Shown here piece by piece: positions 2,895 through 18,717 of a stretch of DNA of 64,000 bases (position 1 is the first letter of the stretch; each line of letters begins with the position of its first letter). A program made the position numbers and the translations under genes. The notes beneath the pieces are model-generated. The model was given only the letters and a program-made list of their open reading frames with translations, made no database searches and was not told the DNA's origin. This stretch comes from Pseudisothecium myosuroides (lineage: Eukaryota > Streptophyta > Bryopsida > Hypnales > Lembophyllaceae). The stretch lies in assembly GCA_951799445.1 (NCBI GenBank), contig OX637293.1:15996001-16060000 (forward strand). Direction: 5' to 3'.

Positions 2895-5230
2895 GGAATC
2901 ATTGTCAATGATCAAAAAGAGATGAGCAAAGTATGCTCTGAGTTTTATAGTAACCTCTATTCTGCTGAACTTGAGTCCCTTGGACAAGCAGCAGCCATGG
3001 AGGAATTCCTTTGTCTACTTCCAGATAACATCACCGAGGACGCCAAAACAACGTTGTCAGTTGTCACGCCCTTTAAGTGAGCTAGAACTCAAGCTTGCTG
3101 TTGATGATATGGCGCCAAGCAAGTGTCCGGGTCCTGACGGAGTCATCACCGAATTCTATAAGAAATATTGGGAAATGATTGGTCCCGCGTTTACGGAGAT
3201 GATACATCAATCTATCCTTAGTGGCTCCCTCCCACGAGGTATGAACCGCGGGACTACTGCCTTACTTCACAAAGAGGGAGATAGAGAGGACCTAGGCAAT
3301 TGGAGGCCAATTAGTCTCCTAAATGTTGCTTATAAGGTCCTAGCAAAGGCACTACAGAAGCGACTGCAACCTATCTTAAGTGAGATTATAAGTTCTGATC
3401 AAACAACCTTCTTACCGACTCGCTATATCCTTGACAACATTCTTCTACTCCATGAGTCTATTGCCTGGGCAAAGGAGTCCAAACAAAGCTCAATCTTATT
3501 GAAGCTAGACTTCAAGAAGGCATATGATACAGTTAGTCTCCCATTCTTGTTCAAAGTGATGGAAACCACGGGCATTCCTTCGAGCTTTGTAAATCTGGTT
3601 AAGATTCTATTCACCAATGCGGAAACTTTGGTCTACATTAATGGGAACGATACCAAATCATTTCCAGTGCTTTGAGGAGTCCGCCAAGGGTGTCCACTAG
3701 CCCCCTTCCTCTTCCTTTTCGTGGGCGAAGCGCTCAATGTTGCAGCAAAGAATCTTATGCTCAATGGAGAATTAGCTGGTATTACACTACCCCTAGACTC
3801 AACTGAGCAACTTATTAGCCAATATGCGGATGATGTCAATTTCACACTAAAGGGTGAGGAGAGATTTTTCCGTCGATTAGCCCTTCTAATTGATAGATAT
3901 GGCTTGGCTTCGGGACTCCAGATAAATTGGCCTAAGAGCCTCGCATATTGGCTTTCTTCCAACCCAGCCCCCCACTGGCTAACTCAAATTGGATGCCCTT
4001 GGGCTGTAGAACACCAGCTTTCAAAATTGCTAGGCTCTCCTTTTGGTATCGATTTACATACTGCAAACGTGGATGACTTCCTAGCAGGCAAGGTGAAGAA
4101 GAAGCTTGCTTTTTGGACCAGCATCCACTCGTCTTTGGCAGGGAGAACGGTCATAGTCAACTCTATTCTGCTAAGCACACTATGGTATTTCATTGCCATA
4201 TGGGGAGGATCCTTAGAGGTTATTTGTAAACTTCGAGCCTCGATGAGAGATTTTTTTTTGTTAGGTTCTACTCACCGCAGTCGCGCAAGAGTCAGTTGGT
4301 CTGACTGTTGTGCATCTAAACATATTGGAGGTCTGAGCCTAGTTGACCCAGAGGAAGCCCTCCATGCTCTCATGGCTAAATGGATTTTAAAATCTATGCT
4401 CCCGGGTTCATCTAATCTTCAGTTCTTCCTTCGATACCGCCTTCTTCAGTTTCGGCCTCAATCCAAAGGAGTATGGCCAAAAATGCCTCAATGGACTCTT
4501 CTCCACAAGTTCCATGCAAGTAAGGGTTCTAGAGCTTGGTTTAGAATAGTGCGGGCCTGGCGTTTACTCAGTAAACATATCATAGCCTCTCCACCTAAAA
4601 ACTGTGATGAAGTTCTTACAACTTCCTTATGGTGGACTACCCACTTCATTGGAGGACACCACGGATTCAATGCCAACAGAGCTGCTACACTTATGCGGAA
4701 CGGCATGGAGCAAATCCAACACATGTGGGACCCGTCCTCTCAATCCTTTCTACTATGGGAAGAAGCAAAGGTCAGATTCCACCTCCTTGATATAGAAGCT
4801 CACTCTTATCGCAACTTGGTGTCTTCCATCCCTGGAAGATGGTTATTCCTGCTAACAGACTACCAACCTGCCACTTGGGATAAGGAATACCTTGGCTTGT
4901 TTGAGAATGCAGATGACCCTCTCCCGACATTAATACTCGCTACTAACCCTCGGTTCAAACCAAGACTTGCTCCTGGTTCTCTCTTATTGGAACTCTATCC
5001 AGGCACTCAATGTTATACGATTGTTCACTCATCAATGACTCTCAAGTCTTGGACCCCTCCTGCAACCCTGGGGAACCCGATCGTCTCAGGTTGGCTTAGA
5101 CGAGTTAGAATCATCCAGCCCAAGATTGGTACACTCTTATATGTAGGTATAGTGGCTGACTTATTCTTTGACCCTGGTAGATGGGAATGGGACTCTTCTG
5201 GGACTCTTCCTTGCCCCCTTCACTCTTATA
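2895..5230 (+). pseudogene. LINE ORF2 fragment: reverse transcriptase domain
   Basis: The reading begins inside ORF2 with text resembling the linker before the reverse transcriptase, then continues through the RT core. Recognisable blocks are the region around KCPGPDG (about 3121), the WRPISLLN block (about 3302), the LKLDFKKAYD block with the first catalytic Asp (about 3499), and YADD (about 3822), which holds the paired catalytic Asp. The copy is dead: a frameshift lies near 3060, and a TGA at 3673-3675 sits where related proteins have Arg before GVRQGCPLAP, consistent with CGA to TGA decay. The coding match stops at 5230, where the 13-kb transposon was inserted. Confidence 0.87.
5226..5230. 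repeat. TTATA target duplication, left copy
   Basis: TTATA occurs here and at 18354-18358. Joining the LINE through a single copy keeps its frame (His-Ser-Tyr then Thr-Thr-Lys-Met), which supports these as the true insertion borders. The exact length (4-6 bp) is uncertain by a base or so. Confidence 0.65.
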
Positions 5231-5258
5231 TCTCATATTTAACTAATTCTGGACAAAT
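5231..5258 (+). repeat. Left terminal inverted repeat of the 13.1-kb transposon
   Basis: The sequence CATATTTAACTAATTCTGG followed by ACAAAT matches the complement of the right end with one mismatch over about 25 bases. The outermost two to four bases do not match between the ends, so the exact tip is uncertain. Confidence 0.75.
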
Positions 5259-5700
5259 CCACAGTCCAGAAATCACTCGGCCGGCAGCCGAAACAACCGA
5301 ATCCCGAATTCTGACTTCCAATGTCATTGAACGTAACTGAACGAAGCAGACTTGAAGAAAACACGCCTAGCAAATGGAGTGACATGACCATAGCAAATGC
5401 ATGGTTCCAGAATTCCCTCAATGAAATAGTGTGACCAAAACATTATAATTGTAGAGAATCATTTCCGGGTGGAGGGAATATTCGCTAGGCAATCCGGTAT
5501 TTTTGTTCGTGCCAATTGAATGAAAGAAATCAGCTAAGTAGCCTATATAATAAGTATCAGCTGTCAGCCGATAACTGAACTGAACTCCATTAGCCCCTCG
5601 TTCGGAATTCCTATAATCCTGAAACGCGACGAGGTCAGTGCATGTTGAATTGAAGCAAGAGTAGATAACGACAGTGAATCATGTGAAGTGAGCATTGCTA

Positions 5701-5794
5701 TTGTGGTATCGGCTGACGGCCGACATCCTTCGAAATACGATTCCGATCCATTTCTACCCATTCGAAAGATGTCGGCCGTCAGCCGATACCACAG
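5701..5794. repeat. Hairpin formed by two inverted palindromes
   Basis: The copy at 5709-5723 and the one at 5772-5786 are exact reverse complements of each other. The match extends into the flanks to about 23 bp per arm (ggtatcggctgacggccgac and its complement), with a loop of about 35-40 bases. Confidence 0.8.
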
Positions 5795-6227
5795 ATGTTC
5801 TGTACCAGAACATCTCCATCCCCGTAGGTAATTTCCGCATACCTCCCCCCACCAAACAACTGCTACCATTTCTATGACATGTATGAGAATCCCGTGCGTC
5901 AACCATGGCCTTCCTACCTGCATTGACCCTTTTGAAGCCCCCCTGCGTGTCCCACTTGAAATCCCATTGCGACAATGAGTATTTTATACCCGTCAGATCC
6001 CACATGAGACCAGTAACGAGACGCCCCAATAATAGTTGACAGGATTGAAGAGCACACAAGGCATGCACATCTGATGTCGGCCGGCAGCCGACATGTTTGC
6101 GTGAACCGAAAATCAATCTGAACCCCAAGCAGCACTCCTTGACTCCAGACGTATGATATGAATAAAAAGTTGACATGTCCGTCCGTCTGACGCTATCGAC
6201 GCGTTCGAAAGCATCCTCCGCGAGTCC

Positions 6228-6470
6228 TCGTTTCGTACCGAATCCTGTAAGCAAGTTCCTTTGGCTGTTTGAGGCGCAGGCGGTGTACCTCCACCGAACA
6301 ATCTGTGCTATACACAGTGACCGGATTCCACCTGATTTCGAAAATATCCCGCGAAGTACATCCGTCTGCGGAACCCTTTCATTATGTATAGCACAAATTG
6401 TTGCGTGGAGATTCATCACCTGTGCCTGCATCCTCCCCGGGAACTCGCTCACAGTATCCGTGCCCGAACG
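6228..6470. repeat. Long imperfect foldback, copy 1
   Basis: The left arm (about 6228-6325) pairs with the right arm (about 6380-6470). The best-matching part is CAATCTGTGCTATACACAGT against the complement of the stretch near 6383-6400. The arms are about 85 bases with mismatches. It could be a MITE-like unit or a transcribed hairpin. Confidence 0.65.
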
Positions 6471-6734
6471 ATTCAACTTTAGAAGGAAGCATTCGAACGG
6501 TCCGAGCGCGCCTGACATCCATGTCTTGAATCCGGATGTGCGTCCTGAATTCCCTTTATTACAGTTGATTCTACATCAAAATGATGGTTACAAATGTCTC
6601 TGATAGAGAAAAGGTGTCCATCTATATATCCCTCCTAAATGCCTACATGTGCATCTATGTCGGCTGGCAGCCGACACCGTGCGCGCGTAGACGTTCCGTG
6701 CTCCACTGCCTCCTCCGAGTCTCCGTTGATTGCA

Positions 6735-6945
6735 CAACCCTGTAAGCACGTTCGTCCAATGTTTGGACGTAAGCGTTGTACCTCCACTGCACAACCTCTG
6801 TTACACGTAGTGACGTGATCCCGCGTAGGTTCGAGACCTGTCTGCGAGAGCGCTTCATTACGTGTAGCAGAGGCTGCGCAGTGGCGATTCAGCGCCTGCG
6901 CCTACAACATCCAGAGGAACTTGCTTATAGTGTCCGTGCCCGAAT
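6735..6945. repeat. Long imperfect foldback, copy 2
   Basis: This is the second copy of the foldback, in the downstream duplicate. CACAACCTCTGTTACACGTA pairs with the complement of the stretch near 6858-6880. The fold has been kept although the sequence differs from copy 1 at many places, which hints at compensatory change. Confidence 0.6.
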
Positions 6946-7218
6946 TCTCCATGTCAGTTGCCCGCCTATATACATAAATGGACTACAGTGTCGGCTGGCA
7001 GCCGACATATAGCGCGCCTGTATCCCGTTCATGAATTCGGATACGTGTCCTGTAATTTCTTAATTACAGGTGATTATTAATCCAAATAATGATTACAAAT
7101 GCTATACAAAAGAAATAAGTGTCCACCAACATCCAGAGCCTATATACAACAATCTACATCTATGTCGGCTGGCCGCCGATACATTTCGCGCCTCCTTGTG
7201 TGTCAGTACCAGTCGTCC

Positions 7219-10200
7219 TCAGCTGGTGCCTCCCAAGACGAGAGTTCCCACCTCTGTGTTCGGCCCCTCAAATCCCTTCTGGCACTCCGGTGTCACCTGG
7301 ACGTAGAGCTTGTGTAAGGGTGACCCCGGCATGCACCGCGGCAGCCCAATGCGAGCGTTTGCCCGACAAAATTCCGGGACCGATAGTCCCGAGGCCAGGA
7401 AGTTCTCGATGAACGGAATCATCGTGGACTGGAGAAAGGGTAATTTCGGAGGATTAGCATTTTTCTTGGGTTTCTCCGAATATAGGGTACAAGCGGGTGG
7501 ATGAACCGCATTGAATGGATCATTGAGTACGTTTCTGTATGGCACGTGATCCACGATCAATGAGTTTGTAAGGGAGGCTCCATTCTGCCTAAGATCCGGC
7601 ACGGACGATATGATCCGTGCGAGACGTTTTAGGTAGATGGGTTTCCCAGGAGTGGCTGGATCCCTATACGCACTCTCGTCACACATTTGCTGTCCGAAGG
7701 CAATGTAATTTTCTGGGATCTCCGGCACCGCCCACCTCATATTATGCATCCGCGCATTGAGTTGAGCCAAGGGCAAATACGACCAGTAGACAATGACAAT
7801 GTCCTGCCTCATACAAAACTGCAAGAATTCCCTAATTCCTGGCCTCTCTCTAACGGTCGACCTCTGCTGCATAGTGGCCGCCTTGAGAATGAGCGGCTCA
7901 TAATACATCAGTGTTCCCTGGACCTCTAGGAACAAGAACAACTTGTGAGACGCCACCGCTGGCGTGTCCACGACCTTTGCCTTTTCTCTCGTATCGAGAT
8001 CCGGCTGGTTACATTCGTCCCCGCCTTCGGACACTTTGTCCTCAGAGGGCTCAGAATGATGAGTGTGATAATCTGCAATGCAAGATGAAATCCACATACC
8101 ATGAGATGCACTTCCAGAGCAACATGAGAGTAGCATTAGAATGTATCGGCTGGCAGCCGACATGCTACCCACATCCTAGTCTGCATCGATAGAGGCTACG
8201 ATAGACGAGTTAGGAGCAACAAGTCCGTGCCATGCAGAACTAACATTACAAGACCTAGTGTAGTGATACCCCCCCTTGGCCCCAGCATGTCTATCGCCTA
8301 CGAACCTCTAACTCGCGTCCGCTTAGATGCTGGACTGGGCGACATCTGTTCGTTCGGGAAGTCCATCTCCTGCCCGACATTTGATTCGGCTCCCCCTTCT
8401 GCGTCTCCAGTATCCCTTACCCGTTTTTCCTTGGAGGGTCCCGAGAGCCGCGAGTCCACTGCCTTTGAAGTTTTTCCACCTCCAGTTGCTTTGCTCCTTC
8501 CGCGTCGCGGCTCACCCTGTGAGTTGGTTCCCTGTATCGTCTGGCCGCCGATAGCGACATCCTGCGCTGTGGCAGGCCTCCCCATCGCGATGAGCATTTC
8601 CCCGGATTGCGGTGTTCGGTCCGCCGCGAGAACGTCCACAGGTGCTGTTCCGCCCCTGACAATTTCCTCGGACTGGGGGATGGCATGCAAATCCACCACC
8701 ATTGCGTCCGCTGCGGTTGATGGTCCGCCATGAGGATCTGTTGCCAACCTGTTAGCTGCAGTTGGAGTCCGAGGGGATGAGGTTCCATAATGAACCGCGG
8801 AATCCGGTGTCCCCTTCATTCTCCTTTGCGGCAGTTGCGTCTCCGGCTGTCGTTCCGTCGACGTCGTCCGATTTGCCCTGGAAGTTGAGGGACGTCCTTC
8901 CGGTGGATTGGGTACCACAACTTCGACGTCTGACTCTCCACCTTCCTCGGTGTCGCGTATCATGAGCGGCCGTGTGGGGGGTACCACATATGCGGCAGAG
9001 ACCAGGTTCATTCCCTTGACTCGCTCGTTCGCTTTTGCCAGTCCTTCCTCCTCTAGAACGAACTCCAGCACAGAGCGGCCATTCCTCTACGTGAACAATG
9101 ACTTGGAGTTAGTAACTTGATGTATCGGCTGGCAGCCGACAGAGTGAGAGTCAAAGAAAATGGAGTTCCAGAAATCTTACCAGAGCGATCTCTGTAACGT
9201 TTCCACCTCCCCAGACGTTGATGACGATAGCGTCCTTGGACTTGAGCGTGGGCTTCATCAAGCGTTCTAGGAGTCCATGTCCCACTCCACACATTCCTCC
9301 GTTCCAGTCGACCTCCCCGTCCACATCCACTTGATACCAGTCGAGCTGCTTGTTGATCCCGGTGATCCTCTTAAAGACTCCAAATAGCTCCGCTCCGTCA
9401 TCTGGCTTGGGGAAGGTGAGAGAGAGTGTGACGAGTGGCTTGGGCTCGATCTCTTCTCTCCTGAAGCCTCCCCGCGGAGATGGCTGGTAATAGACCATAT
9501 GAAAGTACCACGATGACGATGACGATAACGACGCCAATGCAACCGAATCTCGGAAGCGTGATCCCCCAATGAAGAGCATGGGGAGGGGAATATATCCATC
9601 GCGTGCTGGGTTGTTCGGGCCTTCCTCCTCCCCGGGAATTTCGACGTATCTGGCGATGGCCTGGAAATCGCTCTTATTAATCCCCAACAGAATCCCGTCG
9701 TTTGCATACCCGAAGAGCACAAAGAACTTCTTGTCCGTAGGTTGCAGCCCGTCTGTCTCCGCGCTTTCCCGAAGCGAATCCAGGACGTCGTCGATGTTCT
9801 GTCCCAGGCGACATTCATACTTGAGGTTTGAACTACTCCCTGCGACGGTCTCCTGTGGAACCGCAACCGTGGAGTACTTCGTCAATGTCGTGTAGAATAC
9901 CCCCGGCGCCTTTCCGTCCGTGGACTTATCCGTGGTCGGGTTCATGGGGTTGACGCGTCCGTTCAGCCATGTGTTCCCCTCCGTGACCTTCTTGACATCC
10001 TTCCAGACGTTTCTGACGACACCCGGAGAGTACCCCTCCTTGTCCGCGAGTTTTTGCCATGCCTCGTCTGAGTAGGGCACCCAGGTCGCATCCTTACAGG
10101 GGAGGGGAAACTTCTCGCGGAGCCACATGATCTCGTTCATGACCACCCTGTCCAGCTTTTTGTCCTTGCACCAGTCGTACAGGGTGATCACTCCCGAGCC

Positions 10201-12154
10201 CCTTGCCTTGGCTGTGTTCTTGATGCTGACGCGAAGGGCCACAATCTCGTCCGCCAGTTCGCAGAGGTCTGAATCACGCAGCCCCAGAGTCGGCGTGAGA
10301 TCCGTCTTTGTGATGTGCGTGAGCGGCTTCCGATTAACGAGTTGTATCGGAAGAGTCCCGTCATCTCCAATGAGCTCTCCATTCTCCCACGCGTCGAACA
10401 CCTCCGTCCACAGTTCCCAGGTGTTCTTCTTGATGAAGATGAGGGGCAGCTTCGATGACACTTTCTCCTCCACGAAGTGCGCCATCACCTTCAGCTTCGC
10501 TGCCTGCGGAAGTGCAAGTCCTCAACATTCAGAACCTCGGGCTGATCTATCGGCTGGCAGCCGAGAGACAGAGACGACTCACAACTCACAACATGAAATT
10601 GTAAGAGAATCTGTATCGGCTGGCAGCCGACTCAGAAGCAGGTCTTGAACTAGTGCACACATCACGTATACGATGATCAGAATGAACGCTGAGCGGAAGT
10701 GCCTACCTCAAACGCAGTTGACGGTTTTCCACCCCCGTGATGTGGCTCCGGACATCCCGCCTTCACCCATGCCGGTCTCCCCATTTCCGCACAAGATCGG
10801 AACGTCTCCTTGGCCACCTTCTCCGCGATGTTCAAGTTCAAGGCGTTTGAAACCCTGACGAGAGTGTCCGCGTCTTCCGCCCAAACCGGAATGACTTCAA
10901 ATTCCAGAAGATCCTTCTTTGCGTCCGAGCCATCGGGGAAGTTCTTGGCGAGTTCGAGGCATGCTGTAACGGTATGCTGACCACCAATGATGTACCAATG
11001 CACATCAGGAGCTTTCCACCAGGGCACTGGAACACCGTTCACCGTTGTGGTGTCTCCCACAAGGGGACACTTGTCCATGACAGCATCCATTCCTTTGTCG
11101 GTTTCCAAGGGCTTCCGCTTCAATGGAATTCCATGGATTTCCGGCTTCTTTCGAATGGACCCATATCCCTTATACATCGTTGTCACCTACAATGACGATT
11201 TCCTGGACAATTAGAAACCCTACATCAAAGTGTCGGCTGGCAGCCGATAGAATAAAAAGTAGAGTATTATATATAAGGCAGTTCAAATGAAGAGATCTTG
11301 AGCTACAATACCTGTTTCAGGCGGTCCTTTGCGATCTTCCTGTACTTGAGATCATCTGGTGCAATGTGGAGTCTGTCAGCTTGGATGACCCCCGGAAGAC
11401 GTTGCTTCTTGTAGGGGAAGGCATGCCCCAGCCCCTTGTCCAGCGCCTCGTAGATGGCATTCACCTCGCTGTCCTTTGTCTTCGTGGTGAGGTGATTCCC
11501 ACGACGTAGGGCCTCGTCCAGTGTGATCTTGAAGGCCTTCTTGGGATCTTTCCCCTTCCTCTTGGGTTTGCTCGGTGACCCCGCCTCCACGACAGCAGTT
11601 TCCGCCTCCACAGTCGGTGTGCTGGACGGCTTCTTTCTTGCGGAGGGCACCTTCTTCTTTCCTTTCTCCAGGTCCCGAATGGCAAGCGCATTACGGTCAT
11701 CCCTTTCTGCTTTGAGAATATACCATCCCTGCACCAGGTCCTCAGCATCCACGGGATGGTTCTTCTCGAATGTCATGCCCATCGCCATCGCCATATTTCC
11801 ACAGACCTCCTCCGTGCATTTGTCGAAGGGCAACTCCACCGCGATGTAGTCCGCTTCCCCTTCCGGATTCGCAAGTGGGACCAGACAGATGAGGACATGA
11901 ACAGCGTCACCGACCGCCATAACGGACATGACCTTCCCCTTGCCCGGGACCATGTTTCCCTTCATCTTGTACGAGCACGCAATCTCGACTATCCCGTCAG
12001 TCAACTCCCTCCAGCAAAGGCCCCACTCTTCAATTGCTGGACTTGCTTTCCAAGTTGCGCGTGGTGAAATCCCGTCGGAACATATCCCGGAATTCGGAAT
12101 CTGTTCACCGAGGAGTCTTAAGAGCAGGGTAGGTTTCCTGCACACAGAAGACAT
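7219..12154 (-). CDS. Transposon accessory protein with ParB/sulfiredoxin-like and inactive FCP1/HAD-like regions
   Basis: I infer five exons: 12154-11312, 11186-10707, 10503-9181, 9086-8306 and 8072-7219. All junctions use GT-AG and the phases match (0, 0, 0, 1), giving about 1,426 residues. ATG 12154 is the first in-frame Met, but an acceptor at 12138 could instead join an upstream exon. Residues about 270-440 contain a DRLHIAPDDL lead-in and IIGGQHTVTA (about 347-356), resembling the GGHHR-type loop of ParB/sulfiredoxin folds. Residues 442-880 are unrecognised. A polar linker follows (880-1140) with basic patches such as SKRTRVR. The C-terminus resembles FCP1/HAD phosphatases: RPGIREFL, a Lys-containing KRLARI block and LIVDHVPYRN. 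The first motif, normally DxDGT, reads EVQGT (about 1191-1195), so the nucleophile Asp is absent and phosphatase activity is unlikely. The gene diverges from the DUF7869 gene. Function is unknown; a DNA-binding or transposition-assisting role is inference. Confidence 0.68.
8146..11247 (-). repeat. Palindrome copies inside the leftward gene
   Basis: Intron copies are at 8146-8160 (intron 4), 9125-9139 (intron 3), 10550-10564 and 10616-10630 (intron 2), and 11233-11247 (intron 1). All have centre G on the + strand, so C in the pre-mRNA. A degenerate copy at 8537-8551 lies in exon 4. The introns are 233, 94, 203 and 125 bases long, so the palindrome occupies a noticeable part of each. Confidence 0.85.
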
Positions 12155-12333
12155 GAGTTCAGCGTGCTACATAATAGTGTCGGCTGGCAGCCGATACGGT
12201 AAGGGGGTACAATGTATCGGCTGCCAGCCGATACAAGTTCCGGTAATTCATGACAACAAAATGAACTATATTGAATGCCTGCCGATAATGTATTCAGACT
12301 ACAAAAAGTGGAGGCGCTGATGCTGTCGGCTGG

Positions 12334-12494
12334 CAGCCGACACAGAATTCGTGCAATGAACGAACGTATACAAACATGGAAAACATGGAAGGGGAAACTG
12401 TATTGGCTGCCAGCCGACACAGAATTCGTGCAATGAACAAGCGTATACAAACATGGAAAACATGGAAGGGGAAACTGTATCGGCTGCCAGCCGA
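12334..12494 (+). repeat. 77-bp tandem duplication ending in palindromes
   Basis: A unit running from GCCGACACAGAATTCGTGCA to the next GTATYGGCTGCCA is present twice in tandem, with only a few differences. Each copy begins in one palindrome and ends in the next. This points to unequal exchange or replication slippage between palindromes as the way copies are added. Confidence 0.8.
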
Positions 12495-12774
12495 TACAGG
12501 GATTGAATGGTACCTTTCACTGACTGCATCGGCAGTTGCCATCTTGTGGATCAGGGAAGTCGTGTCGGCTGCTCTGCGTCTCCTGTCGGCTGGTGAGGTC
12601 GTCTGCTCACTACTGCCTCCAATTGTATCGGCTGCCCTGGATCTGATATCGGCTGACCTAATCTGCGGAGCGGCTGACCTAAAAAATGCGGCGGCGGGGG
12701 AGCGGATACTATATGACCCGAGGAGTGTCGGCTGCAAGCCGTGGGACCAGAAAACAGGGAGACTGTGGGAGAGA

Positions 12775-12832
12775 CAACGAGAGAGAGCGAGAGCATGAGT
12801 GAGAGAGCGCGAGAGAGAGAGAGAGACTGATC
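12775..12832. repeat. GA-rich microsatellite
   Basis: An imperfect (GA)n run lies about 430 bp upstream of the start codon at 13262. It could be part of a 5' leader or promoter; nothing further can be said. Confidence 0.7.
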
Positions 12833-13261
12833 TTGAGCGTGGAGAGTTAGAAATGAGCTGAAATGAAAGTGATCAGGGGAGTATACCCCCCTCCCTACTG
12901 AAGTGACGGCTGCCAGCCGGGAGGCGCAATCATTACGATTTCATCCACTTTTTTCATCCGTCCATGGTTTCTCATCCAGTCTGAGACGCGTCATCGTCAT
13001 TTGCAGCGCTCATATTGTCCGCTATAGTGGTCCTCAGCTGTTTCGATTTAGGTCCTTCTCATATCCATGCAGTCCAAGGTGTCGGCTGCCAGCCGACACA
13101 ATCTCAAGGTCAGTCTCATGTTCAGAAAATAGGTGATCCTCATCAATGAGGTCGTCTACTGTGATGGATATTGTTGTATCGGCTGCCAGCCGACAAGGGG
13201 AAGCGCGATTGAACTGAACAAGAGATTCGACATCGCTGGTTTTAATTTTAGATTGTGTACC

Positions 13262-16200
13262 ATGACATCATCTGATGAGCCGGGGCTGGATACCACTGTA
13301 ATTGAAGCATTCACAAGAAATGGAGGCTCTGGGAGGTTGAAGATTCGGAAGGGAGCAGTCGTCGCGCTGACACTGGAAGGACTATATTACGCAGGTAGGG
13401 CGGTCGTAGAGAAGGTGGTGCAGCAGGATCCATGCCTCGTTTGCGTTCGGGTGATAGATGTTCCATCGAACCTCGACATGCCCATTCCGTTTCCGGAGGC
13501 AGACTTGCACTTCCTCCGGCAATGCGCAGGAAGGTCGATTGTATGGGAGGCAAAAAATATTTATCCTTATGCGGAGTCGGAAGGGTCATCTTCCGTTGGT
13601 GTCGGCTGCCAGCCGACACATGGAAACACGGACGGGAAACCCATACAGCAATTCCTGTCACTCTCTGTCAATATGGAGGTTGTACTTCTGATGATGGTCG
13701 GTAATGACCTGCAGTATGCTGGTGTGGGATCCATTGTAGAATGCTCACCGAAGGGATATTGGAATGGCTTCCGCGTACCACACAGCTTCTTCGTCGTCGT
13801 CAAGCTTCTGCATGTCCTCGAGGAGTTCGAGGATCAAAATGCCTACTGCGAGATTCCAGAATTCATGACACTGAACCGCTGTGTGGGATTTAGAATTCTA
13901 TGGAGTGGATACAAGGTGAGGCCGGTCGTGGCACCTAGTTCATCGACCGTGAATGTCGGCTGCCAGCCGACAGATATTACAGGAGACTATCTCATCCACT
14001 CACAGCTAGATAGGAGCCCGGAGAGTGGAGGTAGCTCAAACGATGTAGTCGTGGAATTCGGGGACTCGATCGATGAACAGATTCCTGCCACTGCATCGGA
14101 TGAAGACGATCGAGAGGATAGGCTCTACTCATCGGACGGGCAATGCTGCGGATCTGCTCATGGAATTCACAATGGTCATGGTTATAGTACCTCTGTAGAT
14201 GGCAGCTATCCGAGCAGCGGCAATGACTGCTCTGTTCAGGCGGTCGACTTTAGGGGTCATGGAGGTAGTGGAGAATCCAACGCAAACTCGGACGGCGTGC
14301 AGTCGGGGCTACCCATCATGGACAGACCTCTTTGGAGGAATAAATACTGCCAACTTCTCAATGACGATTTCTCAGTCTTCGGAAGAGCAATGATACAAGT
14401 CTGCCTACCGGAGGAAGCCTGCGACGATCGCGTTCTCAGTGATTCAGAGGTAGGGGTCATGTTGGTCTCGGAAAATGAGGAACTGCAAATGACATCCATG
14501 CGGTGGAAGATAACACACGCTAGATTAGAGGGGGGAAGGCTACTCTCGGAGATGGTCACGCTCTGCTCAGAGGCTGCTCTGCTGGAGGAGCCGGATGACA
14601 ACGGATGTCAGGGGGTGCCCAGAAATCCCTACCGGTCGGTGCGCAGGAAAGTCACTCACAAGGATCGCGGTGGAAAATCCAAATTGCAGCTCAAGATCTC
14701 GGAGTTGGAGATACGTGCGGTCAGCTCGCAAAAGTGCTGCAATCTCAGATGCTGCCAGACGTTTCCTTGGGAGGAAACAAAAAATATACGAAGGAAGTTC
14801 TTCGCAGCCACATTCGAGACAAGGAGGGAAATGGCATATGCGGTGCACACTCAAATACATCCGGGGATCGTTCCAGGTAAAAAAGTCATTACTCTTGCAA
14901 ATAGAGACGTATGCGAAAACGCTTGGTGTATCATTCACGGGGTCTCAAGGTCGGCATACCATGTTTACAAGGCGGCGGCCGCAGGAGGATCGGTCAGCGG
15001 ATCGCATGGGAATGCGAGGTCCACAAGACCACGTCCGAAAACTATTCAAGCCCAAGCAACTCTCATGACAATCATCAATGAGAATGCAGATCAGATGCCA
15101 AACGAATTCAGGCTAGTTGGGAATAAGCGCGTAGACAGTCTCAAGGTCGTGCCCTCGGCAATGACGTGGGATCACATGCGCGAACAAGTAAACTCAGTAA
15201 GTTCATCATCTTCTTCTATTTAGACATTACATACTACTGTTTGTCGGCTGCCAGCCGATACCATGTACTTATGGAATGGAAGCACGTTGGCAGGCGCTTT
15301 AGGCATACTTCTCTGCTTTCCTCAGTCAGGGTTCTGCATCTCTGTCGGCTGCCGGCCGATACAAATGCTCAACCTTATTGCGCAACCTCATTTGCCAAAT
15401 GATGTCCTTCAGGTCAATAGGGTATGCAATTTGGAGCCAGTCTCGCAGTCCGCGATCAGCCGCCTTCGGAAGACACATTTCAAAAATGTAGAGGTCAAGG
15501 CGGTGGGAAGCAATTTCTCAAAATGCACAGAATGTGACTTCCTCGTAGAGTGTATTGCAAAGTATCCCAGGGGCTGTGATGAGTGGCAGGCGCTAGTCGA
15601 CGACAGAGAGAGACATCTCAACTACCAAAGGGCATGTAGAAATGTCTATGGAGGATGGACCGCGCAGTCAGTCAGAAATCCATCAGAGTTCCTGTGCATC
15701 ATTCATGATAAAATGGACACCAAGAAGACAGCGATTCCAAGGATGATGCGCGTCACAAAGGCCACCGCGGGGCTAGGGCAATTGCCAATATCTTGCACGG
15801 GCATGCTCACACATGGCCATGGAGATGGCGCATATGCGCATTATTCAACCTCGCTCTGGCCGGGGGACTCAAATTTCACAATTTCGTCGCTCTGTAGGGT
15901 ACTTAGGGCGCTAGAAGCACCACCTGTGCGGGAGTCGAAGGTGCTCTTCAAATCACCACCGCAGAATAGCTTCTTTGAGGCTCTGATGCATGGAAAATCC
16001 AGGTGCAACTCATCCATTCCGCAGGCACAAGAGAAGGTTAATAACATTCAAACATCAGGGCGGCCTCATATTCCACTGCCGAGGAAGCTCTTCTTGCAAC
16101 TGGACAACTCAGCAAAGGACAACAAAAATAGGTTCCTCATGGCTTTCTGCTCATTACTCACCGCGAGGCGCATATTTAAGGAAGTTACAGTCGGATTTCT

Positions 16201-17428
16201 AATTGTCGGGCATACGCACGAAGACATTGACGCGCACTTCAGTTATCTATCGAAACTCATCAAAAAGAAGAACACGTATGTACTAGCAGATCTCATGAAG
16301 GCGTTCATGGACTCGCAGAAGACGGTGGCATTCGTCCCGGAGGTCGTACAAGAGGTCGCAGACTTCAAGGAATACCTCAGAGGATTCCATCATGAGGGCG
16401 TAAACAAGATCATCGGACTCGGAGATAAACACATATTCAAATTCTATGTAGTCGAAGATGGAGATGATCGGGGATGGCCGGTCATGAGGTACAAGAAAAG
16501 GGCAACGGATTCGGCGTGGCTGCCTCCGGGGCCTCCAGTCAAAATGTGGACAGCGGACGAAAATGGGAGACCAAAAATACCGCAGGGGGATCCTAGACCA
16601 GTGCCCTACAAGGCACTCTGGGGGAACGTGGAGATTAATACAGAAAGGCGGAATGCAGAGAAAGAAGTCGCAAGGGCGAGCGAATGCAGGGAGAAACAAA
16701 CATTCATCAAAAATGGAATCGCAAAGTACATTGAATTCTGGAAATTGGGAATGGCCAGAAACAAGCGATATGCACAGGAAATGGCGGGGTGTGTGGCTTA
16801 CTGGGAAAAAATTTACAAGGAAATCAATTCAGTCATGCCACAAAATCAAGCAGAGCTTCGAGAAGGATTGTGGCCGCTCTCAGACTGGACAAGAGATCAC
16901 GGAGACGCTTTTACGGGGGAGGGGACAGAAGAATATCATTCACTGGACACCACTCCGGAGGACGAACCAGAGAATACTCTATACTGCGGACCAGCCAAAG
17001 ACAGACCCAGACTGACATTCAATCCATTCAGGGATGTTTTGCTAGGAGACTTTGTGCTCTGTAGACCATGTCAAAACAATTACCTGCCGGTTTGGTTGGG
17101 ACGGGTACTGGAATGTGTCAACAGGACTCCAGGGACATCGTATGGGAACTTCACAATAGAGTGGTGGACTCCAATGAAGGCGAAGAGGGAAGGAAAGGCG
17201 CTGGTGGCAAGGGAATGCTGGACAAGGAGATGGCACAAGGAACTCACTCTTCCACAGATAGTACATGTCAGCATGGTCTTGTACTCGCACAGAATGCCCT
17301 CGCATGCAAAGAATGGACCTCCCAACTCTCATGTCATCCCGGAGGCATCCGTGGCTGCTGCACTTGCAAATCTAGAGGCCGCGGGAGCAACATTGGACAC
17401 AGATGCAGACGAACAAAGACATGATTAG
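13262..17428 (+). CDS. DUF7869-family transposase-like protein
   Basis: Two exons, 13262-15196 and 15413-17428, join at TCA|GTAAGT and CTTCAG|GTC in phase 0, giving about 1,316 residues. ATG 13262 is the first one free of palindrome sequence, with a good context (accATGa). The N-terminal 480 residues are unrecognised. A Cys-rich block follows (CCNLRCC, about 488-494), then VCENAWCIIHGVS (about 560), as in plant DUF7869 proteins. Exon 2 has CTEC, then HDKMD (about 745), QLDNSAKDNKNR (about 873-884) and GHTHEDIDAHF (about 911-921). These acidic and His residues are the conserved core, and the likely catalytic Asp/Glu set of an RNase H-like transposase (inference). Two palindromes lie within exon 1 and are read as VGCQPT in frame; the one at 13602 could instead be part of a 54-base intron (13595-13648). 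The intron carries two more. The gene is open throughout and may be functional. Confidence 0.75.
13602..15359 (+). repeat. Palindrome copies inside the rightward gene
   Basis: Copies with centre C on the + strand lie at 13602-13616 and 13956-13970 (in exon 1, both in the frame that reads VGCQPT) and at 15244-15258 and 15345-15359 (in the intron). Confidence 0.85.
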
Positions 17429-18353
17429 CGCTGCTACGGTATCGGATCGGTCGGCTGCCAGCCGATAGTCGGAATTCGGATTACGGAGGATTTACAAGGA
17501 CATTCCGCTCAGGGATTCTCGTACGCGGATGCAGGTGTCGGCTGCCAGCCGATACAACACTCTTTGCTGCTGCCGAAGCGCACTGTTCTATCCACAAGAT
17601 GATTTCAATCAATGGTAAAGCCAGGAACGTCCACATTTTGTATTCTCGTTTGGGGTCAGGAAGGGAGTAACTATATGTCTGAAGTTAGTTCAGGCTGGGC
17701 GTTTAATGGTTACCATATGTATCGGCTGTCGGCCGACACATGGAATGTAGGTCTGTACAGCAATCTCTAAAACGTTTTTGGTACTCCTGCTTGGTGGATG
17801 ACACATCATTTCGTAATGGAATGGCGACGAACTTGTGGAATTCTATTATCAGTTTATATGAAGTTCAGCTAAGGACAGTTTTACAAATAATGCTCTTTAG
17901 TGCGCTACTCAACCGGATTGCTCAGCTCTCACTCATGTTCTCCGCTCTGTTTTATTCTCGCTAGGCACATTAGTCTACTCATTTGTTGGCTGCCGGCCGA
18001 TACATTTCACCAGGCTGAGACTACATGTTGTTTGAGGCTGACATGGATTTGGATTATGGGAATTGTACTGGGAGTTTTCTTCATTTCAGGGGCGCGGTTA
18101 TAGGCATACCTTCTGACCACACACGAAAACCACTGCAAATAAGCAACTCCACTACTTCCTTTTCCATTTGGAAAACAAAGTTTCCTTCATGGCAACATTT
18201 TATGACTTACCAAATGTACATTTTCACAATGTGTGGGAGGGCAGCCGATACTTTTCCATCATTTCAAGCATGTTTTTCTACTCTGCAGTGGAGGCTAAGT
18301 GAAAAAATTGTCCATAATTCGCGCATTTGTCCATAATTAGTTAAATATGGGTT
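17429..18353. other. Right flank of the transposon with palindromes, no gene
   Basis: There is no convincing coding region here. Palindromes lie at 17451-17465, 17538-17552, 17722-17736 (centre T) and 17986-18000, plus a degraded copy near 18234-18248. Near the tip, TGTCCATAATT occurs twice (about 18310 and 18330), overlapping the right terminal inverted repeat. Confidence 0.7.
18325..18353 (-). repeat. Right terminal inverted repeat of the 13.1-kb transposon
   Basis: ATTTGTCCATAATTAGTTAA followed by ATATG is the inverted match to the left end. It is followed by the TTATA duplication at 18354-18358 and then by LINE coding sequence. Confidence 0.75.
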
Positions 18354-18717
18354 TTATACCACAAAAATGGGATGCTCTCTACTGACCAAACGGACGGAGT
18401 TGGCCAAATCTATCCATGAGAAGTGGCATGGCGATTTAGTAGTGGGCTACCAGCCTAAGTAGAATGATGTGTGGCAAAAAACTCGGCCTCAAAAGGAGGC
18501 GGGTTTTCTCTGGTCTGTGTACCATTGCATAGTGGCAGTTCACAGTTGGCGTAAGATAGCCAATCCCAACATTTCTACCATGTGTAATAGTTGTCCCACA
18601 GGTCTTGATGAAACTATTCTGCATCAATTCCACAACTGCGAAAAGACTCGTCATGCGTGGAACTATGTCCTCTCAGTATTGTACACCGCCCTTCAGATTC
18701 CTCTGATGGTGGGAAGC
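18354..18717 (+). pseudogene. LINE ORF2 fragment: zinc-binding region after the RT
   Basis: The LINE frame resumes with YTTKMG and runs through a zf-RVT-like region: WQKTRPQK, a Cys pair CNSCPTG, and HQFHNCEKTRHAW, which give a Cys/His zinc-binding pattern. An in-frame TAG stands near 18460. The match stops at the Mutator-like element, and the next residues (GSWPSLTWQQC) follow at 29578. Confidence 0.82.
18707..18717. repeat. Target duplication of the Mutator-like element, left copy
   Basis: TGGTGGGAAGC is repeated at 29574-29584. A 9-11-bp duplication is typical of the Mutator superfamily. Joining through one copy restores the LINE frame as PLMVGSWPS. Confidence 0.82.

Follow-up and report, generated by a model that had tools for sequence, protein, structure and literature searches.

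A dispersed, lineage-specific palindrome in DUF7869 transposons of the moss Pseudisothecium myosuroides as a candidate docking site for an element-encoded protein

Why does a transposon carry the same short palindrome some thirty times, and are the copies used as DNA or as RNA? The question is raised by a 64,000-nucleotide stretch of the Pseudisothecium myosuroides genome (contig OX637293.1, positions 15,996,001 to 16,060,000; hereafter the window), in which a 13,124-bp transposon, referred to as element A, carries two divergent genes and, scattered among them, the 15-mer TCGGCTG-N-CAGCCGA with a free centre base. A first-pass annotation, made from the letters of the window, had noted about 32 copies throughout the transposon and none elsewhere in the window, with a centre base that follows the direction of transcription, and had taken this polarity to suggest a role in RNA, an oriented protein site or a strand-aware spread of the copies.

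The genome (388 Mb, 222 contigs) was searched for the motif and for relatives of the element, of which B1, B2, C and D (one element each) and 5.5 kb of a further one, the C10 element, were studied. Within 5236-18350, 32 copies were recovered at up to three mismatches (18 exact, nine with one mismatch, four with two and one with three), matching the earlier count, against means of 0, 0, 0 and 0.7 sites at zero to three mismatches in 30 dinucleotide-Markov simulations of the element. The remaining 50.9 kb of the window contain no copy at up to two mismatches and four at three, in line with the reported absence there. Genome-wide, there are 711 exact matches and none for a backward-read control pattern. 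Of these, 50 were listed with positions, and all 50 fall in four C1 clusters, each holding a DUF7869 copy, so that among the places listed the motif is confined to such elements.

The reported polarity was largely reproduced. Left of 12.2 kb the centres are 12 G (11 in the first-pass annotation), two T, one A and no C, and right of 12.4 kb they are 13 C (12 previously) and one T, plus the degraded copy at 18234, which has G. The switch is not clean, because the two copies in between, 12217 (C) and 12326 (G), stand in reverse order relative to the polarity rule. With the sense strand of each palindrome assigned by gene zone, the transcribed sites of A show C 20 times, G never and A or T four times (the three-mismatch site 18234, with G, was dropped). 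The statement that every sense strand shows C thus stands for the transcribed sites of A only in so far as none of them, 18234 aside, has G. It does not extend to the intergenic copies, where both centres occur (G/C counts of 2/5 for A, 3/5 for both B1 and B2, and 5/5 plus four A/T for C), nor to the relatives, where sense C:G is 15:6 in B1, 15:4 in B2 and 19:8 in C, together 49:18 (69:19 over A, B1, B2 and C with 18234 included). Tabulating centres across related DUF7869 elements, as had been suggested, therefore uncovered a bias in the same direction: polarity is real in the subfamily of A, and in the relatives it is a bias, not a rule. GC skew was rejected as its cause, since roughly the same noncoding sense DNA, in approximate segments, is not C-rich (C/(C+G) = 0.46-0.48).

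To separate constraint from drift, 18 of the 32 sites in A were paired manually with orthologues in B2 by exon/intron position, the centres being already known, and fourfold sites served as the neutral reference. The arms are identical at 231 of 252 positions (92%), the fourfold sites at 334 of 802 (41.6%). The orthologous centres comprise 13 C-C, four C-G and one T-C pair, with no change from C to A or T. Flips at the centre (4/17) are about as frequent as at neutral sites (85/280, 30%; Fisher p = 0.79), while loss of G or C is rarer at the centre than at neutral sites (172/452; p = 5e-4). The centre is thus held to G or C, but the choice between the two drifts at a rate close to the neutral one. 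Moreover, arm mismatches read on the sense strand over A, B1, B2 and C consist of 39 G-U and 35 A-C (p = 0.73), so that pairing on the transcribed strand, as expected of a regulatory RNA hairpin, is not preserved over these four elements. No Rfam match was obtained at the gathering threshold. Because orientation drifts almost neutrally and the arms show no overall sense G-U preference, the copies resemble palindromic DNA sites in their behaviour, not RNA hairpins. The step from polarity to RNA or to an oriented site is not supported: centres flip as neutral sites do, intergenic centres are mixed, G-U and A-C mismatches are balanced, and the palindrome of element D, described below, is even.

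Several observations nevertheless weigh on the other side, most of them in A alone. There, sense C exceeds sense G by 20:0, arm mismatches lean towards RNA pairing (eight G-U against one A-C), and the sense hairpin is stabler than the antisense one at 14 of 24 sites, less stable at six and tied at four. Polarity also extends to the bases that directly flank the arms, in A, B1, B2 and C alike (sense G..T 54, A..C 18). GC or TA skew explains this flank polarity only in part: it lies above composition in C (p = 0.002, 0.004), not significantly in A and B2, and the p values, here and above, are optimistic because the sites, through tandem duplications and related copies, are non-independent. These points favour a role of the copies in RNA, where introns and untranslated regions would form hairpins with six paired bases and a GCC loop that are bound by a protein or affect splicing or export. 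With mismatches, centre flips, hairpin energies and the Rfam search taken together, and with mixed intergenic centres, unpaired half-sites in a stepped array and a symmetrical palindrome in D, we regard such a role as improbable, even though A by itself leans towards it.

A milder alternative adds to DNA binding a weak transcription-linked selection that keeps polarity, for instance because one orientation is disfavoured in transcribed DNA. Polarity points the same way in A, B and C, the flank polarity of C exceeds composition, and sense G in C (8/27) is lower than the 42% of neutral flips, though not significantly (p = 0.24). On the other hand, the A-B2 flips resemble the neutral rate, and the sites are non-independent, some stemming from tandem duplication; we consider this selection possible but doubtful. 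Polarity is probably inherited and not functional, and it may have arisen by strand-aware copying.

If not RNA, what do the copies serve? Their layout is informative. Noncoding positions account for 29 of the 32 sites, although coding sequence, its exon limits being drawn slightly generously, makes up 63% of the element. Eight palindromes lie on the 3' side of the minus-strand gene (5277, 5557, 5709, 5772, 6077, 6660, 6991 and 7165; 5277..7179). Within that gene (8146..11247, minus strand), 11233 falls in intron 1, 10616 and 10550 in intron 2, 9125 in intron 3, 8146 probably in intron 4 and 8537 in coding sequence. The divergent intergenic region holds 12180, 12217, 12326, 12403, 12480, 12728 and 12906 (12180..12920). 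On the plus-strand side, 13082 and 13179 lie upstream of the predicted start of the DUF7869 gene, 13602 and 13956 in its coding sequence, 15244 and 15345 in its intron, and 17451, 17538, 17722, 17986 and 18234 on its 3' side (up to 18248). Each of the five introns read, intron 4 being the least certain, carries one or two palindromes. The intergenic region further contains a 77-bp tandem repeat (12326..12499) with one palindrome per unit and centres G, C and C; palindrome-bearing tandem units also occur between the genes of B (56-57 bp) and C (30/60 bp). Next to it, single half-sites TCGGCTG follow one another in one orientation on the plus strand at steps of 21 or 42 bp (12565, 12586, 12628, 12649 and 12670; 12565..12676), while one-mismatch half-sites at 12529 and 12599 fall off this step. 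Similar arrays adjoin the intergenic repeats of B1 and B2 (21, 42 bp) and of C (18-23, 41 and 43 bp), all as raw spacings. Across A as a whole there is no excess of half-sites (33, with a control mean of 31.0), and the stepped array alone stands out.

Two local repeats were noted in passing. Palindromes 5709 and 5772 lie within a 33-bp inverted repeat (5702-5793; 97% complementarity, 26 nt apart), and one copy is therefore oriented oppositely to its twin. In B1, CAGCCAA repeats 28-29 bp apart (L125, 8535-8649) are found inside an insertion of about 5 kb that interrupts exon 3.

Strong constraint on the arms, the preference for introns, flanks and the intergenic region, the intergenic arrays of palindromes and half-sites, and the similar layout of other palindromes in other lineages together make it likely that the copies are DNA sites of an element-encoded protein. 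Our preferred reading, held with slightly better than even confidence, is that a dimeric protein docks at these palindromes and that it is most probably the ParB-fold protein of the minus-strand gene; for that product taken by itself as the binder, we see the chances as evenly balanced. By docking at the intergenic array the protein would control the two divergent genes, and from the dispersed sites it could coat the element or mark it as self, much as ParB does from parS and KorB from its scattered operators. At the odd centre, G or C would be required but in either orientation, and the sense-strand bias would be inherited history, for example from direct duplications that arose locally on either side of the element, and not a working part.

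The minus-strand gene (7222..12154) was delimited by exon conservation. It comprises five exons (12154-11312, 11186-10707, 10503-9181, 9086 to about 8306, and about 8072-7222), all with counterparts in relatives. Splice sites were assigned by eye, with an uncertain donor for intron 4, which is the least secure intron because the B alignments continue through site 8146. Exons 1-2 encode a ParB/sulfiredoxin-like domain, recognized by alignment and by the fold of the D homologue, and the product thus has the ParB N-terminal fold. In the CTP-dependent ParB clamp the nucleotide motif is GxxRxxA (GERR); here it is not present, and the aligned position reads GGQHTVTA or GGQHTVEA. The structure model of m3 (pLDDT 42.8) was too poor for a search for a palindrome-reading helix-turn-helix, and profiles against PDB sequences returned only histones for the ParB region (E 2 or more) and only antibodies for m3 (E 0.025 or more). 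Any methyltransferase trace is faint: CcrM was the sole model reported, far below the cut-off (E 0.0052 in C, 0.043 in A), N4/N6 DNA methyltransferases gave no Pfam match and none among PDB sequences at E <= 1, and the motif [DNS]PP[YFW] was not found in the exons of A. The last exon region (7222-8172, minus strand) has a weak match to NLI-interacting-factor-like phosphatases, likewise below the cut-off (E 0.013).

The palindromes might instead be sites for the DUF7869 transposase, read by its N-terminal cysteine-rich part for recognition and synapsis of the element, as TnpA does in En/Spm. Copies lie near both ends (5277, 18234), and transposase and motif diverge together across lineages, as does the ParB-fold protein. 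Sites are not concentrated at the ends, however; the central intergenic array is among the places where they are densest, and the right-end copies are degenerate (three mismatches at 18234, two at 17986), which leaves this explanation unlikely. Elements of the En/Spm (CACTA) type have CACTA ends, a 3-bp duplication and many short TnpA-binding motifs in subterminal positions. Element A shares with them the many short repeated motifs, but its sites are dispersed and central, its duplications are of 4 bp and its ends read AACCC/ATCTC, so that it does not qualify as a CACTA element.

Less probable still, marginally below even the role in RNA, is that the copies are host signals, for example targets of a host repressor or silencing factor, or that they arose as a by-product of mutation. 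Hosts silence transposons, and the motif contains CpG; against this, all 50 listed places (of 711) lie inside elements, the arms are conserved, and the motif differs between element lineages within one host genome.

This difference between lineages is seen most clearly in D. D carries an even palindrome, TCGTGGGATCCCACGA, which accordingly has no centre base to orient, in a layout like that of A: 28 sites at up to four mismatches, six of them exact (raw count). They lie between the m3-like and m2-like exons of the minus-strand gene, upstream of both genes, in the intron region of the DUF7869 transposase-like gene (tp) and on the 3' side, with the site at 11449 inside the tp exon frame. TCGTGGGATCCCACGA is absent from A, B1, B2 and C at up to three mismatches. 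In the C10 piece, a different but related palindrome occurs seven times at up to two mismatches (raw count), once just beyond the first tp exon. The reading favoured here is one of docking sites akin to parS and the KorB operators, most likely with a private palindrome in each lineage. Also in the C10 element, units of about 55 bp form an array that includes 11 inverted repeats AGTTTGGAG-GGAT-CTCCAAACT (L167, reversed coordinates 843-1443) and is unlike the other motifs.

In other genomes, the A motif appears as a read-through peptide in two of 141 collected homologous proteins, most of which probably lack intron coverage. Centres, deduced from residues and not from DNA, are C, G and C in P0123 and C in P0001, plus a further C by a looser pattern; a single loose match in P0066 is probably due to chance. 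A viral origin was considered and rejected, as viral contigs gave scattered 15-mer matches, with two copies in one of the 80 stretches listed (80 of at least 120), and no DUF7869 relative there.

ParB-like proteins in algal transposons are already known. Sola1-1_Ec32, a Sola-1 transposon of Ectocarpus, is described with a ParB-like-domain gene on the strand opposite the transposase, similar elements are stated for green and red algae, and ParB-methylase proteins of such transposons were proposed to bind the element that encodes them and so to mark it (PMC12477816). Like Sola1-1_Ec32, element A is a large DNA transposon with a divergent ParB-like-domain gene, and its 4-bp target duplications agree with those given for Sola2 (PMC3627910). 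In contrast to the Sola-1 ParB-methyltransferase gene, the methyltransferase part is barely visible here. The dispersed, lineage-specific palindromes are the addition made here; the main text of PMC12477816 holds no word beginning 'palindrom'. KorB of plasmid RK2 is described as acting from operators at promoters and from others 45 to >1,000 bp away (PMC11790492). As in KorB-OB and ParB-parS, a ParB-fold protein is found here together with candidate sites near and far from promoters on the same mobile replicon, and the palindromes, of 13-16 bp in ParB-parS, are of similar size. Here, however, the replicon is a eukaryotic transposon with introns and 32 sites per 13 kb, known from sequence alone, GGQHTVTA replaces the arginine-rich nucleotide motif of ParB, and there is no known partner protein. 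We tentatively suggest a parS-like system in eukaryotic transposons of this lineage: some 30 family-specific palindromes would be the loading points from which a ParB-fold protein, whether or not it has a working methylase, coats the element, serving self-recognition, control of the two genes and separation from families with other palindromes. The palindromes are candidate targets for such a protein. If this holds, a bacterial-type DNA-marking protein would have been rebuilt as a self-recognition system within eukaryotic mobile DNA, and the site-protein pairs could serve as orthogonal DNA tags.

The DUF7869 transposase-like gene (13263..17428, plus strand; PF25273, E 1e-42) consists of two exons, 13263-15196, with a putative start codon, and 15413-17428, separated by an intron (15197-15412, GTAAGT..TTCAG). 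The closest named protein relatives are from the mosses Ceratodon and Physcomitrium. Of 1076 candidate relatives in the genome 61 were scored, so copy counts are lower bounds: all or most of a DUF7869 exon is 99-100% identical in at least 30 copies (30 of 62 matches), and the family has therefore probably been active recently. Other copies are about 80% (B), about 69-78% (C and others) or 48-49% identical (four copies, including D and the C10 element).

The limits of the transposon (5230..18353) were set by a right end found in 30 of 30 loci and a left end found in three copies. It is flanked by the target site duplication TTAT (5226..5229 and 18354-18357) and bounded by imperfect terminal inverted repeats (5230..5258, plus strand, and 18325..18353, minus strand). 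Right ends are concordant up to the duplication at all 30 loci, two having a base change within the last nine bases. Two other copies are flanked by ATGA and ATAT, so that an AT-rich 4-bp duplication was seen in all three elements with both ends read. The transposon is inserted in a LINE (long interspersed nuclear element): an RVT_1 match lies nearby on the left (2971-3672), and when the flanks are rejoined with a single TTAT, the reading frame on the left continues without a stop for 34 residues beyond the junction. An identical DUF7869 protein is encoded by two copies about 38 kb apart in opposite orientation, one in the window (15224-17425) and one outside it (G000:C7:15972522-15974723), which suggests a very recent local transposition. 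Finally, the left noncoding part of element A contains degenerate inverted repeats at 6228-6471 (102 nt) and 6855-6930 (76 nt).
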